This document shows positions 1 through 49,660 of a DNA stretch of 64,000 nt, in pieces. Position 1 is the first letter of the stretch, and each line of letters starts with the position of its first letter. The position numbers and the translations under genes were made by a program. Origin of the DNA: Frigidibacter sp. (GTDB lineage Bacteria; Pseudomonadota; Alphaproteobacteria; Rhodobacterales; Rhodobacteraceae); NCBI RefSeq assembly GCF_030695035.1, contig NZ_JAUYTT010000008.1, positions 682,001-746,000 of the forward strand. The letters run 5' to 3'. The notes below the pieces were generated by a model, which was not told where the DNA came from, made no database searches, and was given only the letters and a program-made list of their open reading frames with translations.

Positions 1-555
1 CACCACCTCTTCGTCGATGGCGCGGCGGTCAGCCTCGATCTGCGTCTCACCCGGGCCGCCGACAAAGCCAAGCCCGCCGCGCTGGCGTTCAAGGTGGGTC
101 CAGGCGCGGACCAGCCGCGTGCGCTGATAGTTCAGCGCGGCCAGTTCCACCTGCAAGACACCCTCCCGGGTGCGGGCGCGGTCGGCGAAGATTTCCAGGA
201 TCAGCCCGGTCCGGTCCAGAAGTTTCACCTTCCAGGCCTTTTCCAGATTGCGCTGCTGCACGGGGCTGACAGGGCCATCGACCAGCACAAGGTCAACCTC
301 GGCCTCGGCCATCCGCGCCTTCAGTTCATCGACCTTGCCGGTGCCGAACAGCAGGCCCGGCTGCGCGCGCGGCAGGCGCACGACTTCGGCCCCGACAACC
401 TCGAGATCCGGCAGCGCGATGGCCAGCGCAACGGCTTCGGCCAGTGCCAGCTCCGGCTCGCGCCGGGACCGCACATGGCCGGGGCCGGACTTCATGTCCG
501 GATGAAGGACAAAGGCCCGTGTGGGCCGGTCCTTGACGATATTGAGATCGGTCAG
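1..555 (-). CDS. hflX: GTPase HflX, N-terminal part (runs off window edge)
   Basis: Reverse-strand reading gives ...[119 protein letters not shown], typical HflX; directly follows hfq. Start codon uncertain (frame opens at CTG 555, just after a TGA). Not in the ORF track because it is truncated. Confidence 0.9.
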
Positions 556-785
556 TCTTCACCCTCGTACAGCGAGATCGCCTGGCCGGGCATGATCGTG
601 GAAATGGCATGCTTGTAGACCAGTTGCGACTGGCCATCCCGGCGAAGGAGCACGCAGAAATTGTCGAACCAGGTGATGACGCCCTGCAGCTTGACACCGT
701 TGATCAGGAAGATCGTCACCGGGACCTTGGTCTTGCGGACATGGTTGAGGAAGGCGTCCTGCAGGTTCTGTTTGTCGGCGGCCAT
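552..785 (-). CDS. hfq: RNA chaperone Hfq
   Basis: 77 aa [66 protein letters not shown]; canonical Sm1/Sm2 motifs. Confidence 0.98.
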
Positions 786-42725: not shown

Positions 42726-43724
42726 CTACCCTTGCCGCAACCGCAAAATGATCTGGGCCAGGATCGACACCGCAATCTCCGCCGGATTTTTCGCCCCGAC
42801 GTTCAGCCCGACCGGCCCATGGATGCGCGCGATGTCGGTCTCGCTCACCCCCGCCGCCCTGAGCCGCTCCTGCCGCTTGGCATGGGTGCGGGTAGAGCCG
42901 AGGCAGCCGATGTAGAAAGCTGGCGAGGCGAGAGCGGCCAAGATCGCCGGATCGTCGATCTTGGGGTCATGGCTGAGGGTTACCACGGCCGTGCGCGCAT
43001 CAGGCGCCAATCGCGCCAGCGCCACATCGGGCCAGTCATCGAGGATCGCCTCGCCCGGAAACCGCGCCTCTGACCCAAAGGCGCCGCGCGGGTCGATCAG
43101 CACCGGATCGAAGCCCGCCATCCGCGCCATCGGGATCAGTGCCTGCGCGATATGCACCGCGCCGATGACCATCAGCCGCAGCGGCGGATTATGCAGGCCG
43201 GCGAAGAGGTTGCTGTCTGGATCGACGCCTGACCTGTCGCTGCAAAACCGCTCCGCCAGCGCGCCGGTGGCAGCCTCGGCCTTCACCAACTGAACGCCGA
43301 ATCCCTCCAGATCCACCAGCAACGCGACCGCCCGCCGTGCCGCCCGCGCTTCCACCAGATCGGCCAACAGCGCCTCGGGCAAGGCCTCCCCCACCGGCTG
43401 CACCAGCACCCCGATCTCGCCGCCGCAGGCAAGGCCCACCGCGAAGGCATCATCATTGCTGACCCCGAACCGCAGCAGCCGCGCCTTCCCGTCCACAAGC
43501 GCCTCCAGCGCCTCGAGGATCACCGCCCCCTCAACGCAGCCGCCAGAGACGGAGCCCATCATCGCCCCGTCGCCCGCAATCACCAGCTGGCTGCCCGCCT
43601 GCCGCGGGGCCGAGCCCCAGGTCTCCACCACCGTCGCCAGCACGGCGCCGCGGCCGGCGCGGTGCCAGTCCAGCGCAAGTTCGGGGATGCGGTCGGCCTC
43701 GGGGCGGGTGGGATGATCGGTCAT
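42726..43724 (-). CDS. XdhC/CoxI-family protein (molybdoenzyme maturation)
   Basis: AVLATVVETWGSAPRQAGSQLVIAGDGAMMGSVSGGCVEGAV...FYIGCLGSTRTHAKRQERL...IHGPVGLNVGAKNPAEIAVSILAQI. Confidence 0.9.
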   Translation of the reverse strand: MTDHPTRPEADRIPELALDWHRAGRGAVLATVVETWGSAPRQAGSQLVIAGDGAMMGSVSGGCVEGAVILEALEALVDGKARLLRFGVSNDDAFAVGLACGGEIGVLVQPVGEALPEALLADLVEARAARRAVALLVDLEGFGVQLVKAEAATGALAERFCSDRSGVDPDSNLFAGLHNPPLRLMVIGAVHIAQALIPMARMAGFDPVLIDPRGAFGSEARFPGEAILDDWPDVALARLAPDARTAVVTLSHDPKIDDPAILAALASPAFYIGCLGSTRTHAKRQERLRAAGVSETDIARIHGPVGLNVGAKNPAEIAVSILAQIILRLRQG

Positions 43725-43804: not shown

Positions 43805-43926
43805 AAAAACGGAAAACGCTGCGGGAGGGAGGCCCGCAGCGCATTTCCCGACCGACGAGGGAGACGTCTGGTTAGGGCGGTTCACTGCGGCAGGGAGTTC
43901 CGCATTTCAGGGAGAAGCGAACCGAT
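43805..43926 (-). ncRNA. Putative FNR-controlled trans-acting sRNA with four CUCCCU anti-SD motifs
   Basis: Predicted RNA AUCGGUUCGCUUCUCCCUGAAAUGCGGAACUCCCUGCCGCAGUGAACCG...AGACGUCUCCCUCGUC...CGCUGCGGGCCUCCCUCCCGCAGCGUUUUCCGUUUUUG; FNR box and -10-like element upstream; 9-bp terminator stem. Confidence 0.75.
43813..43841 (-). terminator. Intrinsic terminator of the putative sRNA
   Basis: Minus strand CGCTGCGGG-CCTCCCT-CCCGCAGCG-TTTTCCGTTTTT. Confidence 0.85.
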
Positions 43927-43960
43927 GCGGCCAAATTATCGCCGCCAGTAGGAGGGCGAT

Positions 43961-43974
43961 TTGACACAGATCAA
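43961..43974 (-). promoter_or_regulatory. FNR/FnrL box
   Basis: TTGATCTGTGTCAA on minus (TTGACACAGATCAA on plus), 9/10 match to TTGAT-N4-ATCAA; centre 41.5 nt upstream of predicted +1 at 43926. Confidence 0.75.
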
Positions 43975-44095
43975 GTTGGCGTCCCCGTGCCCTGCGACAA
44001 AAGCGCAGCACTCTGCGAGCCAACCTTTCCCATTCTTGCTAGAAAAAGCATCCCAGGGTGAGGCGGATCAGGAAACGCTCCAGTAGCCCCAGGCA

Positions 44096-44147: not shown

Positions 44148-46013
44148 TCAGTTCGACGCGGTCTGCAGCAGGTCGGTGATCCGACGCACAGAGGCGCGGC
44201 GGTTGGTACGCTCGGAGGTCTGCGAATTCACCCGCAGATAGCTCTCGCCGTAACCCTGCACGACCATGTTTTCCGGCGGCACGTCGAAATACTCGGTCAG
44301 CGCCAGCGCCACCGATTCCGCGCGCCGGTCCGACAGCGCGAGGTTCGAGGCAGCAGAGCCCACGGCATCGGTATGGCCCTCGATCAGGAACACCTCTTGC
44401 GGGTTCTCGTCGATATAGCCCTGGATCAGCCGGCCGAGCGAGGCGAGCGCCTGCGCCTGATCCGGGGTGATCGCGGCCGATCCGGTCTCAAACGTGATCG
44501 CGTTCACGTCGATCACCGGCACCAGAGAGCGCACTTCGGCGATGTTGCGCACCTGCGACAGGCTGAAGCGGCGGCCGAAATCCGACTCGCGGGCCAGCGC
44601 GGTGCGCAGCTCTGACTCGTCATCGCTGAGCGTCACGAAGTTGCGCGTGGGCGCAGGCAGCGTGGCGACATTCACCGGCTCATAGGCGACGGTGTCGTCG
44701 ATCAGCAGGTACTCGCGGCCATTCGGATCGATCCGGGTCCGGCGCAACACGCGCATTTCCGGGCTGTAGATCGTCACGATCCGCGAGCCATCCTCACGCA
44801 CAACCGTCGTGCGGCTGGAGCCGTCGTTGAACTGCTCGGTCCGCACGTTCGAACCGGGCTGGCGCAGCAGCACGTCATCATCCTTGATGACCTCATACTG
44901 ACCATCCGGGCGCTGGACGACCACGCGGTCACCCGAGTTGAGCGCCACCTTGCGGTTGTTGGAGACGACAGCACCGACGGCAAGCGCACCGAGGCCAAGC
45001 AGCATCACCTTCTCGCGGTCGGACAGGGCGCTGTTCCAGCGGTCGTCATCATCGTCGTCATCGTTGCTGCTGCGGGCTGCGCTGCGCTCGGACACGGTGT
45101 TGTCGAAGTCTTCCGAAGAGGAGCGGGCGTTTTCCTCGGTGACGGTTTCTTCCATCACCTCGACATTGTCGCCAGCTTCGACATTTCCGTCTTCGCCGGT
45201 CACGGCATCCAGCGCGGCGGCAGCCACCGGCTCGCCAGATGCGGCGTCGGGTTCATCAGCCATCAGCTGCACGGCAGGCTGATTGTCCTCCGCGGCTGTG
45301 GTGGCAGCGGCATCTGCCTCGGTTTCGGCGCCAGCTTCGGCGGCGGGCTCTGGCTGAGCTTCCTCGGCGACCGGTGCTTCCGGTGCGGCATCCTCGGCGG
45401 GGGCTTCCGTGGCCTCGGCGGGGGCGTCATTGTTCTGCTGCTCCAACGCGCGGCGCAGCTCCTCCTCGCTGGAGTCGGTCCCGGCGGCGGGCTCCTCGGC
45501 GGCCGGTTCTTCGGCTGCGGGCGCTTCGGCTGCCGGTTCCTCTGCCACCGGTTGCTCGGTGGCGGGTTCTTCTACCACGGGGTCTTCGGCGGCGGGCTCT
45601 TCAGCGGCAGGCTCTTCCTGCAGCGCACGGTCCAGCGCATCGCCGAGGCTCTCCTCGCCCTCGGCTGCGGGGATCTCGGGCGCCTGATCGGGCTGCGGGA
45701 TCTCTTGCGGGCTCTCGGCCGGAGTTTCATCCGGGACCGGCTGCTGCTCGGGCGCGGGTTCCGGGGTCACCTCAGGCTCGGCCGGCACTTCTGCGGGGGC
45801 CTCCTCGGGCTGCGGTTCCGGCTGGGCTTCTTGCTGCTGCTCGGCCTCGTCGGCTCTGGGTTCCTCGGCCGCGCAGGGGGGCGTCGAGCCATCGGCGCAC
45901 AGCACGGTTGCATCCGTCTGGGCATAGACCGGGACCGGCAGGGCCATCGACAGGCTGGCCATCAGCGCCGTGGCGCGGGCCGCCCCTGTTCTCGTCTTTT
46001 TGCTGCGCATCAC
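44148..46013 (-). CDS. OmpA-family protein with long Pro/Glu/Ala-rich N-terminal region
   Basis: C-terminal VFLIEGHTDAVGSAASNLALSDRRAESVALALTEYFDVPPENMVVQGYGESYLRVNSQTSERTNRRASVRRI; N-terminal signal and EEPAAEEPA repeats. Confidence 0.92.
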   Translation of the reverse strand: MMRSKKTRTGAARATALMASLSMALPVPVYAQTDATVLCADGSTPPCAAEEPRADEAEQQQEAQPEPQPEEAPAEVPAEPEVTPEPAPEQQPVPDETPAESPQEIPQPDQAPEIPAAEGEESLGDALDRALQEEPAAEEPAAEDPVVEEPATEQPVAEEPAAEAPAAEEPAAEEPAAGTDSSEEELRRALEQQNNDAPAEATEAPAEDAAPEAPVAEEAQPEPAAEAGAETEADAAATTAAEDNQPAVQLMADEPDAASGEPVAAAALDAVTGEDGNVEAGDNVEVMEETVTEENARSSSEDFDNTVSERSAARSSNDDDDDDDRWNSALSDREKVMLLGLGALAVGAVVSNNRKVALNSGDRVVVQRPDGQYEVIKDDDVLLRQPGSNVRTEQFNDGSSRTTVVREDGSRIVTIYSPEMRVLRRTRIDPNGREYLLIDDTVAYEPVNVATLPAPTRNFVTLSDDESELRTALARESDFGRRFSLSQVRNIAEVRSLVPVIDVNAITFETGSAAITPDQAQALASLGRLIQGYIDENPQEVFLIEGHTDAVGSAASNLALSDRRAESVALALTEYFDVPPENMVVQGYGESYLRVNSQTSERTNRRASVRRITDLLQTASN

Positions 46014-47770: not shown

Positions 47771-48778
47771 TCAGCGCTCGGGGTTGAACCCCAGCATCCG
47801 CCCCAGCTTCGAGGCGTAGAACTCGCCCACCAGCCCGCGGCGGAACAGCAGCACGCAGACCATGAACACAACGCCGGTGATGATGGTGACCGGCACGTTC
47901 GAGGTAGCGAGGTAGTTCTGCAAGCTGACCACCAGCCCCGCGCCGAAGACCGGCCCGATCAGCGTGCCGATACCGCCAAGCAGCGTCATCAGGATCACCT
48001 CGCCCGACATCTGCCAGCTGACGTCGGTCAGTGTGGCGAACTGGAAGACCAGCGCCTTCATCCCGCCCGCCAGCCCGGTCAGCGCCGCGGACATGACGAA
48101 GGCCCCCAGCTTGTAGCGCGCGACGGAGTAACCGAGCGAGATGGCGCGGTTCTCGTTCTCGCGGATCGACTTCAGGATCATCCCGAAGGGGGAATTCACG
48201 AAGCGCCAGATCAGCGCCATGCCGATCAGGAACACCCCCAGCACGGTGAAGTAGAGGTTGGTGGAGTTGCTGAGGTCGATGAACCCCAAGAGATGCCCGC
48301 GCGGGACGGACTGGATGCCATCCTCGCCATGGGTGAAGCCGGCCTGCAGGCAGAAGAAGAAGAACATCTGGCTGAGGGCAAGGGTGATCATCGCGAAGTA
48401 GATGCCCTGCCGGCGGATGGCGATGGCGCCCATGATCAGGCCGAGGCCCGCAGCGCCGGCGACGCCGAGCAGGATGCCGAACTCCGGTGGCCAGCCCCAG
48501 ACCTTCACTGCATGGGCGGTGAAATAGGCGGCCCCGCCGAAGAAGGTGGCATGGCCGAAGGACAGCAGGCCCGTATATCCCAGCAGCAGGTTGAAGGCCG
48601 CGGCGAAGAGCGCGAAGCACAGAAGCTTCATCAGGAAGATCGGGTAGAGCATGAAGGGCGCGACCAGCAGGAAGGCCAGTGCCCCGATCAGGATCGCGGC
48701 CTTGATCGGCCCGGCAAGTGCCAGGGTGCGCGTCGGTGCAGTATCGCCAGTATGTGTGCTGTGGCTCATGTCAGGCAT
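47771..48778 (-). CDS. livM: Branched-chain amino acid-type ABC transporter permease (LivM)
   Basis: 335 aa, [22 protein letters not shown] motif; in liv cluster. Confidence 0.92.
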
Positions 48779-49660
48779 CCTTGCCGAATAGGCCTGCGGG
48801 ACGCAGGATCAGGACGATCGCCATGATGACGAAGATCACGATGTTGGAGGCTTCGGGGTAGAAGACCTTGGTCAGCCCCTCGGCAATGCCCAGCATGTAG
48901 CCGGTGATGATGGCACCCAGGATCGACCCCATGCCGCCCACCACGACCACCGCGAAGACGATGATGATGATGTTACTGCCCATCAGCGGGCTGACCTGAT
49001 AGATCGGCGCTGCCAGCACCCCGGCTAGCCCCGCAAGCCCCGCGCCAAGCCCGTAGGTCAGCGTCAGAAGCAGCGGCACGTTGATGCCGAAGCTTTGCAC
49101 CAGCACCGGGTTCTCGGTCGCGGCGCGCAGATAGGCGCCGAGCTTGGTCTTCTCGATCAGGAACCACACGCCGAGACAGATCACCATCGAGGCGACAACC
49201 ACCCAGCCGCGATAGATCGGCAAGAACATGAAGCCGAGGTTCACCCCGCCACTCAGCGCGGCGGGCGTGGTATAGGGCTGGCCCGAGGCGCCGAAGAAGT
49301 ATCGGAAGGTGCCCTCGATGGTCAGCGCCATGCCGAAGGTGAAGAGAAGGCCATAGAGATGGTCGAGCTTGTAGAGCCGCGAGAGCATCGTGCGCTCCAC
49401 AAAGGCCCCCATCGCCCCCACCACGATCGGCGCAAGGATCAGCGCGCCCCAATAGCCGATGCCGGCGAATTTCAGCATCAGCAGGGCGACGAAGGCCCCC
49501 AGCATGTATTGCGCGCCGTGGGCGAAGTTGATGACCCGCAAGAGGCCGAAAATCACCGCAAGACCAAGCGACAGCAGCGCGTAGAACGAGCCGTTGATCA
49601 GCCCGACCAAGAGCTGCCCCAGCAGCGCCTGAATGGGAATGCCGAAAAGCATCATCATCG

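Follow-up and report, generated by a model that had tools for sequence, protein, structure and literature searches.

A conserved small RNA gene with an FNR-type promoter and repeated CUCCCU loops in Frigidibacter sp. and other Rhodobacteraceae

Results

A small RNA gene between ompA and xdhC

We analysed a stretch of 64,000 nt (64 kb) from the genome of Frigidibacter sp., hereafter the window, whose positions serve as coordinates throughout. On its minus strand, at 43805..43926, lies a gene for a small RNA (sRNA) of about 122 nt, with a predicted 5' end. The gene, its structure and its conserved FNR-type promoter are well supported by sequence comparison, which indicates that this is a real, conserved sRNA family, absent from Rfam and from the open-access literature searched. 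An earlier note, made from the sequence alone, had placed an FNR box, a −10 element, the RNA and a terminator between 43974 and 43805 on the minus strand, and all of them were present there. The FNR-type box TTGATCTGTGTCAA (43961..43974, minus) is centred at −41.5 and is the sole occurrence of TTGAY-N4-RTCAA in the 64 kb, where 0.07 are expected. It is followed by the −10-like sequence GATAATTT (43933..43940, minus), whose TA lies 22 nt past the box. A box near −41.5 at a fixed distance from the −10 element, as in class II FNR promoters, was found at this locus and in all 26 homologues described below.

The predicted RNA folds with −49.2 kcal/mol (z = −4.3), in the manner described in the earlier note except that the terminator stem, given there as 9 bp, was computed as 10 bp. 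Hairpin 1 (43878..43924, minus) has an outer stem CGGTTCGC/GTGAACCG, a CUCCCU in its 5' bulge (43914-43909), an inner stem TGCGG/CCGCA and an apical CUCCCU (43897-43892, minus). Hairpin 2 (43851..43872, minus) pairs ACC-A-GACG with CGTC-GGT around a UCUCCCU loop (CUCCCU at 43863-43858). The intrinsic terminator (43805..43842, minus) consists of the stem GCGCTGCGGG/CCCGCAGCGT, a CCUCCCU loop (CUCCCU at 43831-43826) and a U-rich tail. The four CUCCCU motifs, which had been claimed to be single-stranded, were indeed predicted to be open, with P(unpaired) of 0.86, 0.98, 1.0 and 1.0. The window holds nine CTCCCT copies, four of them within 90 nt at this locus. No such cluster arose when the window was dinucleotide-shuffled 200 times, and 20,000 shuffles of the RNA sequence never gave four copies, in agreement with the earlier argument that chance hardly explains them.

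Homologues in the family

Among 148 relatives, a DNA search found that two congeners have copies with 87-89% identity, and other genera gave partial matches. Ten sequences from the DNA search and a pattern search were aligned (alignment A1) and used to build a covariance model, R1, which covers the RNA only and contains no promoter; the window's gene scores 117 bits against it. Across 397 genomes of the family, R1 gave ten matches above 100 bits, plus a tail of weaker ones, and one pattern scan over named genomes returned 37 loci, one of them in Frigidibacter albus. Altogether, 26 distinct sequences exceeded 100 bits, from Frigidibacter, Thioclava, Phaeovulum, Sinirhodobacter, Rhodobacter aestuarii, Defluviimonas and others. 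As a negative control, pattern hits in unrelated phyla (L055, L056, L058, L064 and L074) were not matched by R1; such chance matches to the promoter-plus-motif pattern came from Bacillota, Saprospirales, Opitutaceae, Clostridiales and Emergencia.

Several loci at the margin of this set were also observed. Four weak R1 matches (L033, L036, L044 and L050) have their FNR box further upstream, which implies longer RNAs with extra CUCCC hairpins; they are possibly further branches of the same RNA group. Frigidibacter sp. RF13 and SD6-1 (L054, L075) carry an FNR-box CUCCC RNA with another fold and a terminator loop lacking the motif. A strong but truncated match on a contig titled Sphingomonadales AU13.004 (L088) is near-identical to Thioclava marina, which suggests a mis-binned contig.

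The promoter carries two conserved elements

All 26 strong homologues kept TTGA-N6-TCAA upstream, at −47 to −49 relative to the RNA start and ending 33-35 nt before it, with TA 22 nt after the box; TA at this offset was also found in most weak homologues. Since R1 contains no promoter, the upstream sequence provides an independent check. This check is partly circular for the named loci, which were found by a pattern that included the box. It is not circular for the ten strong R1 matches from the family scan (eight to ten of which had first been found by DNA or pattern searches) or for G286, found by R1 alone.

A second conserved element, not mentioned in the earlier note, lies further upstream. 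The sequence TGTCGCA(G) precedes the box by 17 nt in 24 of the 26 homologues and by 16 nt in two, with the count starting at the base that follows TGTCGCA; the spacer sequence varies, and TGTCGCA was part of no search pattern. In the window it occupies 43999-43993 within TGCGCTTTTGTCGCA (43993..44007, minus), and the TGCGC to its left completes a degenerate GCG..CGC inverted repeat. A degenerate GCG inverted repeat is also how the site of PrrA/RegA has been described (PMC4263372). The element is thus a candidate RegA/PrrA-type site, and we infer that a regulator of this type binds it.

The box layout was compared with published chromatin immunoprecipitation (ChIP) data for R. sphaeroides 2.4.1, represented by our genome G055 (100% PufX identity; coordinates in agreement with the published ChIP tables). 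TTGA-N6-TCAA-N22-TA occurs there at nine sites, and six of these (792521, 1022523, 1217747, 1882322, 2201525 and 2201549) fall inside published ChIP peaks that the tables assign to CrpK and FnrL alike (PMC4263372). This proportion indicates that the box-N22-TA layout marks real FNR-type promoters. No CUCCC hairpin RNA followed any of the nine sites, and R1 found no match in this genome at E ≤ 1; R. sphaeroides therefore appears to lack the RNA gene. One of the six sites (C4:792521, L392) lies in a ChIP peak without an assigned gene (PMC4263372). It precedes an unannotated open reading frame of 33 codons that has a GAGGGAG ribosome site and may encode a small FnrL-dependent protein.

Three predicted unpaired motifs are invariant and the stems covary

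In the 26 homologous RNAs, 88 of 88 CUCCC motifs had P(unpaired) above 0.7, with a mean of 0.95 versus 0.33 elsewhere. Three segments are identical in all 26: UCUCCCUGA in the bulge of hairpin 1, UCUCCC in the loop of hairpin 2 and CUCCCUCCCGC at the terminator. The four copies claimed for the window are thus all present, but the conserved core comprises only these three, as homologues differ in the apical copy of hairpin 1.

Covariation in the stems, an examination that the earlier note had proposed, was assessed in an alignment fitted to the covariance model (A3), with 500 shuffles and slid pairing partners as controls. In A3, 98.7% of cells pair and nine pairs changed on both sides. The covariation score was 0.288, against 0.140 ± 0.010 in shuffled alignments (0 of 500 reached it) and 0.03-0.09 with partners slid; these values come from related sequences aligned by a model that favours structure. 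In the MAFFT alignment A1, with the structure predicted by RNAalifold, seven pairs likewise changed on both sides. Two-sided changes occurred in 6 of the 7 modelled pairs of the hairpin 1 outer stem and covariation in 2 of the 4 modelled inner pairs of hairpin 2, and one pair of the terminator stem exchanges U-A, C-G and A-U. Loss of the loop motifs or of the FNR box among relatives had been named beforehand as an observation that would count against the RNA. The box, the 22-nt spacing to TA, the CUCCCU loops and the pairing all persist in the 26, while the intervening DNA and the neighbouring genes change.

A free-standing gene

Pfam searches confirmed the genes named in the earlier note. Upstream is an OmpA-family gene (44148..46013, minus; PF00691, E 1e-18) with its own terminator hairpin at about 44128-44096, and downstream an XdhC/CoxI-family gene (42726..43724, minus; ATG at 43724; PF13478 and PF02625). 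A candidate chaperone gene, hfq (552..764, minus; PF17209, E 2.4e-33), is in the window, not adjacent to the RNA gene.

The order ompA - sRNA - xdhC is shared by the window and Frigidibacter albus. Tabrizicola, Rhodobacter amnigenus, G166 and others have diverged versions, likewise flanked by xdhC on one side and by ompA or a CoxE-type VWA gene on the other. The stems of these versions differ, but the FNR box and CUCCC loops are kept, with two loops in the three named relatives. As the RNA lies on the same strand as both genes in Frigidibacter and these diverged relatives, it might be a cis element, either a leader or attenuator of xdhC or a product of the ompA 3' untranslated region (UTR). 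However, ompA ends in a terminator of its own, the RNA is preceded by a separate promoter, and about 80 nt separate its 3' end from xdhC. Moreover, in Thioclava, Phaeovulum, Sinirhodobacter and others the RNA adjoins different genes, labelled infC, L,D-transpeptidase or YeeE-type from reading of their translations rather than by family search. We consider a cis element very improbable. That the RNA is conserved although its neighbours change points to a stand-alone, trans-acting gene, and its free-standing nature is well supported by these comparisons.

Relation to known RNAs

Neither the window nor 20 homologue loci gave an Rfam match at gathering thresholds, and we found no paper describing the RNA within the open-access literature. 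The nearest Rfam resemblance was to ar14 (RF02344), which includes NfeR1 of alpha-rhizobia. Both RNAs are about 120 nt long and have three hairpins, each with a redundant unpaired anti-Shine-Dalgarno (anti-SD) motif rich in C and U. All three members tested matched ar14 over its full length, at 16, 23.6 and 27.3 bits, so that the RNA might be a divergent member of the ar14/CcsR 'cuckoo' family brought under FNR control. These scores, however, are far under the 58.8-bit cut-off, and other families, among them ar7 and sX13, give scores like that of ar14, so C-rich loops common to all of them may be the sole cause of the match. The family motif CCUCCUCCC is absent, its place being taken by the three invariant segments given above, and NfeR1/ar14 is regulated by NtrC/LsrB and nitrogen stress, not through an FNR box. 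A separate CcsR/ar14-like array in the same genome scores up to 56 bits. We regard membership of this family as unlikely. By comparison of design, NfeR1, whose three hairpins silence ntrB through redundant CCUCCUCCC motifs independently of Hfq (PMC10746234), is the closest mechanistic analogue.

The CcsR1-4 RNAs of R. sphaeroides likewise present C/U-rich anti-SD hairpin loops in Rhodobacteraceae, and an effect of CcsR on the pyruvate dehydrogenase complex has been reported (PMC8307010). Cuckoo RNAs (RF02791) are recognized by a covariance-model score at gathering, the CCUCCUCCC motif and a location 3' of ccaF1 (DUF1127), whereas our locus gave no CcsR1 match and is flanked by ompA and xdhC. 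The array that sets the two apart in this genome lies on contig C1 at about 48600-49200, minus (L001 1481-2061), in a stretch with twelve CTCCCT copies. It scores 32-56 bits against CcsR1 and ar14, under the Rfam cut-offs, and is probably the genome's cuckoo/CcsR locus.

PcrZ of R. sphaeroides is a low-oxygen sRNA dependent on PrrA and FnrL, and the RNA could be its local form, given the same kind of signal inputs. The 5' end of PcrZ, reported at chr1 2,565,820 (PMC6238624), falls within ChIP peaks of PrrA and of CrpK/FnrL. The 136-nt sequence at that position in G055, however, contains no CUCCC and lacks an FNR box in its 120 upstream nt; R1 does not match it on its own strand, the best score being 3.2 bits on the opposite strand. 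Identity with PcrZ is thus largely refuted and extremely improbable. A guess that PcrZ lies near RSP_0557 proved wrong, and a 15.9-bit match in that region is not PcrZ. RSs2461/SorX was also rejected as a candidate identity, being a processed 3' UTR product of RSP_0847.

Candidate targets

The pattern AGGGAGA-N3-10-ATG occurs at 60 sites in the window's genome versus 4 for the reversed pattern, and at 41-82 sites in three other carriers. Among orthologues with AGGGAGA ribosome sites, pdhB, a fadJ-like gene and a metallo-beta-lactamase (MBL)-fold hydrolase have them in three of the four carriers, and etfB, transporter components and an acyl-CoA dehydrogenase in two. Simple duplex energies, which ignored accessibility, were uninformative on targets. 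The RNA would likely act as an anti-SD repressor, and we hypothesize that it is an anaerobic repressor of aerobic carbon use. Alternatively, the loops might target an RNA-binding protein or serve as a sponge that titrates a second RNA; several identical loops would also suit titration. Yet CUCCCU is complementary to AGGGAG ribosome sites, and NfeR1 represses through comparable redundant loops (PMC10746234). A protein-binding or sponge function accordingly appears quite unlikely.

Discussion

We consider it probable that the gene encodes a stand-alone, trans-acting sRNA that is activated at low oxygen by FnrL, and possibly by a RegA/PrrA-type regulator, and serves as a multi-loop anti-SD repressor. 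When oxygen is low, an activator of the FNR family (most likely FnrL) would bind the box at −41.5 in a class II arrangement, probably joined by a RegA/PrrA-type regulator at TGTCGCA. The RNA of about 122 nt would form two hairpins and the terminator, each presenting an unpaired CUCCCU, and these redundant loops would base-pair to Shine-Dalgarno sequences of the AGGGAG(A) type and thereby block translation of several mRNAs. Candidate targets belong to aerobic carbon use, such as pyruvate dehydrogenase (pdhB), beta-oxidation and electron transfer flavoprotein (ETF), and to transporters. The identity of the regulator, transcription, targets, repression and dependence on Hfq or a chaperone are all inferred from sequence. 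The RNA would be a functional counterpart of E. coli FnrS. That gammaproteobacterial RNA is not, to our knowledge, known to carry repeated anti-SD loops. FnrS is an anaerobic multi-target repressor activated directly by FNR (PMC4263372), and it was set apart from our RNA by description only.

Several points weigh against this interpretation. First, TTGA-N6-TCAA also suits CrpK, Dnr and NnrR-type proteins. The regulator might therefore be an NO- or redox-responsive relative of FNR/CRP (Dnr/NnrR or CrpK) instead of FnrL, and the RNA would then report nitric oxide or redox state. In R. sphaeroides, FnrL has binding determinants in common with CrpK (PMC4263372), and in Dinoroseobacter Dnr regulators act beside FnrL (PMC5398030). 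The box and its spacing, on the other hand, match FnrL-bound sites of R. sphaeroides, and carriers share the RegA/PrrA-like element. These features are not decisive, and we hold a regulator other than FnrL to be a tentative, rather unlikely alternative. Second, AGGGAGA is a common ribosome-site variant, so the shared candidate targets may only reflect conserved Shine-Dalgarno sequences. Third, the 26 homologues share kinship, and counts among them are not independent events. Finally, neither the congeners G002 and G004 nor R. sphaeroides has a full-length R1 match, which in the two congeners suggests that the RNA was lost or strongly diverged within the genus.

We lean, with reserve, towards regarding this as an undescribed family that serves many Rhodobacteraceae as an oxygen-regulated global repressor. 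It would combine joint activation by FnrL and RegA/PrrA with three or more redundant CUCCCU loops on freely drifting flanking stems, and would damp aerobic carbon metabolism as oxygen falls. FNR-controlled sRNAs are known in enterobacteria and pseudomonads. In Rhodobacteraceae, FnrL ChIP-seq directly tied only two sRNAs, RSs0019 and RSs2461, to FnrL sites (PMC4263372). The conserved layout of TGTCGCA, 17 nt, FNR box, 22 nt and TA offers a ready promoter for studies of joint FnrL/RegA control. If our interpretation is true, the RNA would give a major bacterial group, with denitrifying, phototrophic and marine members, an additional, post-transcriptional layer of oxygen adaptation.
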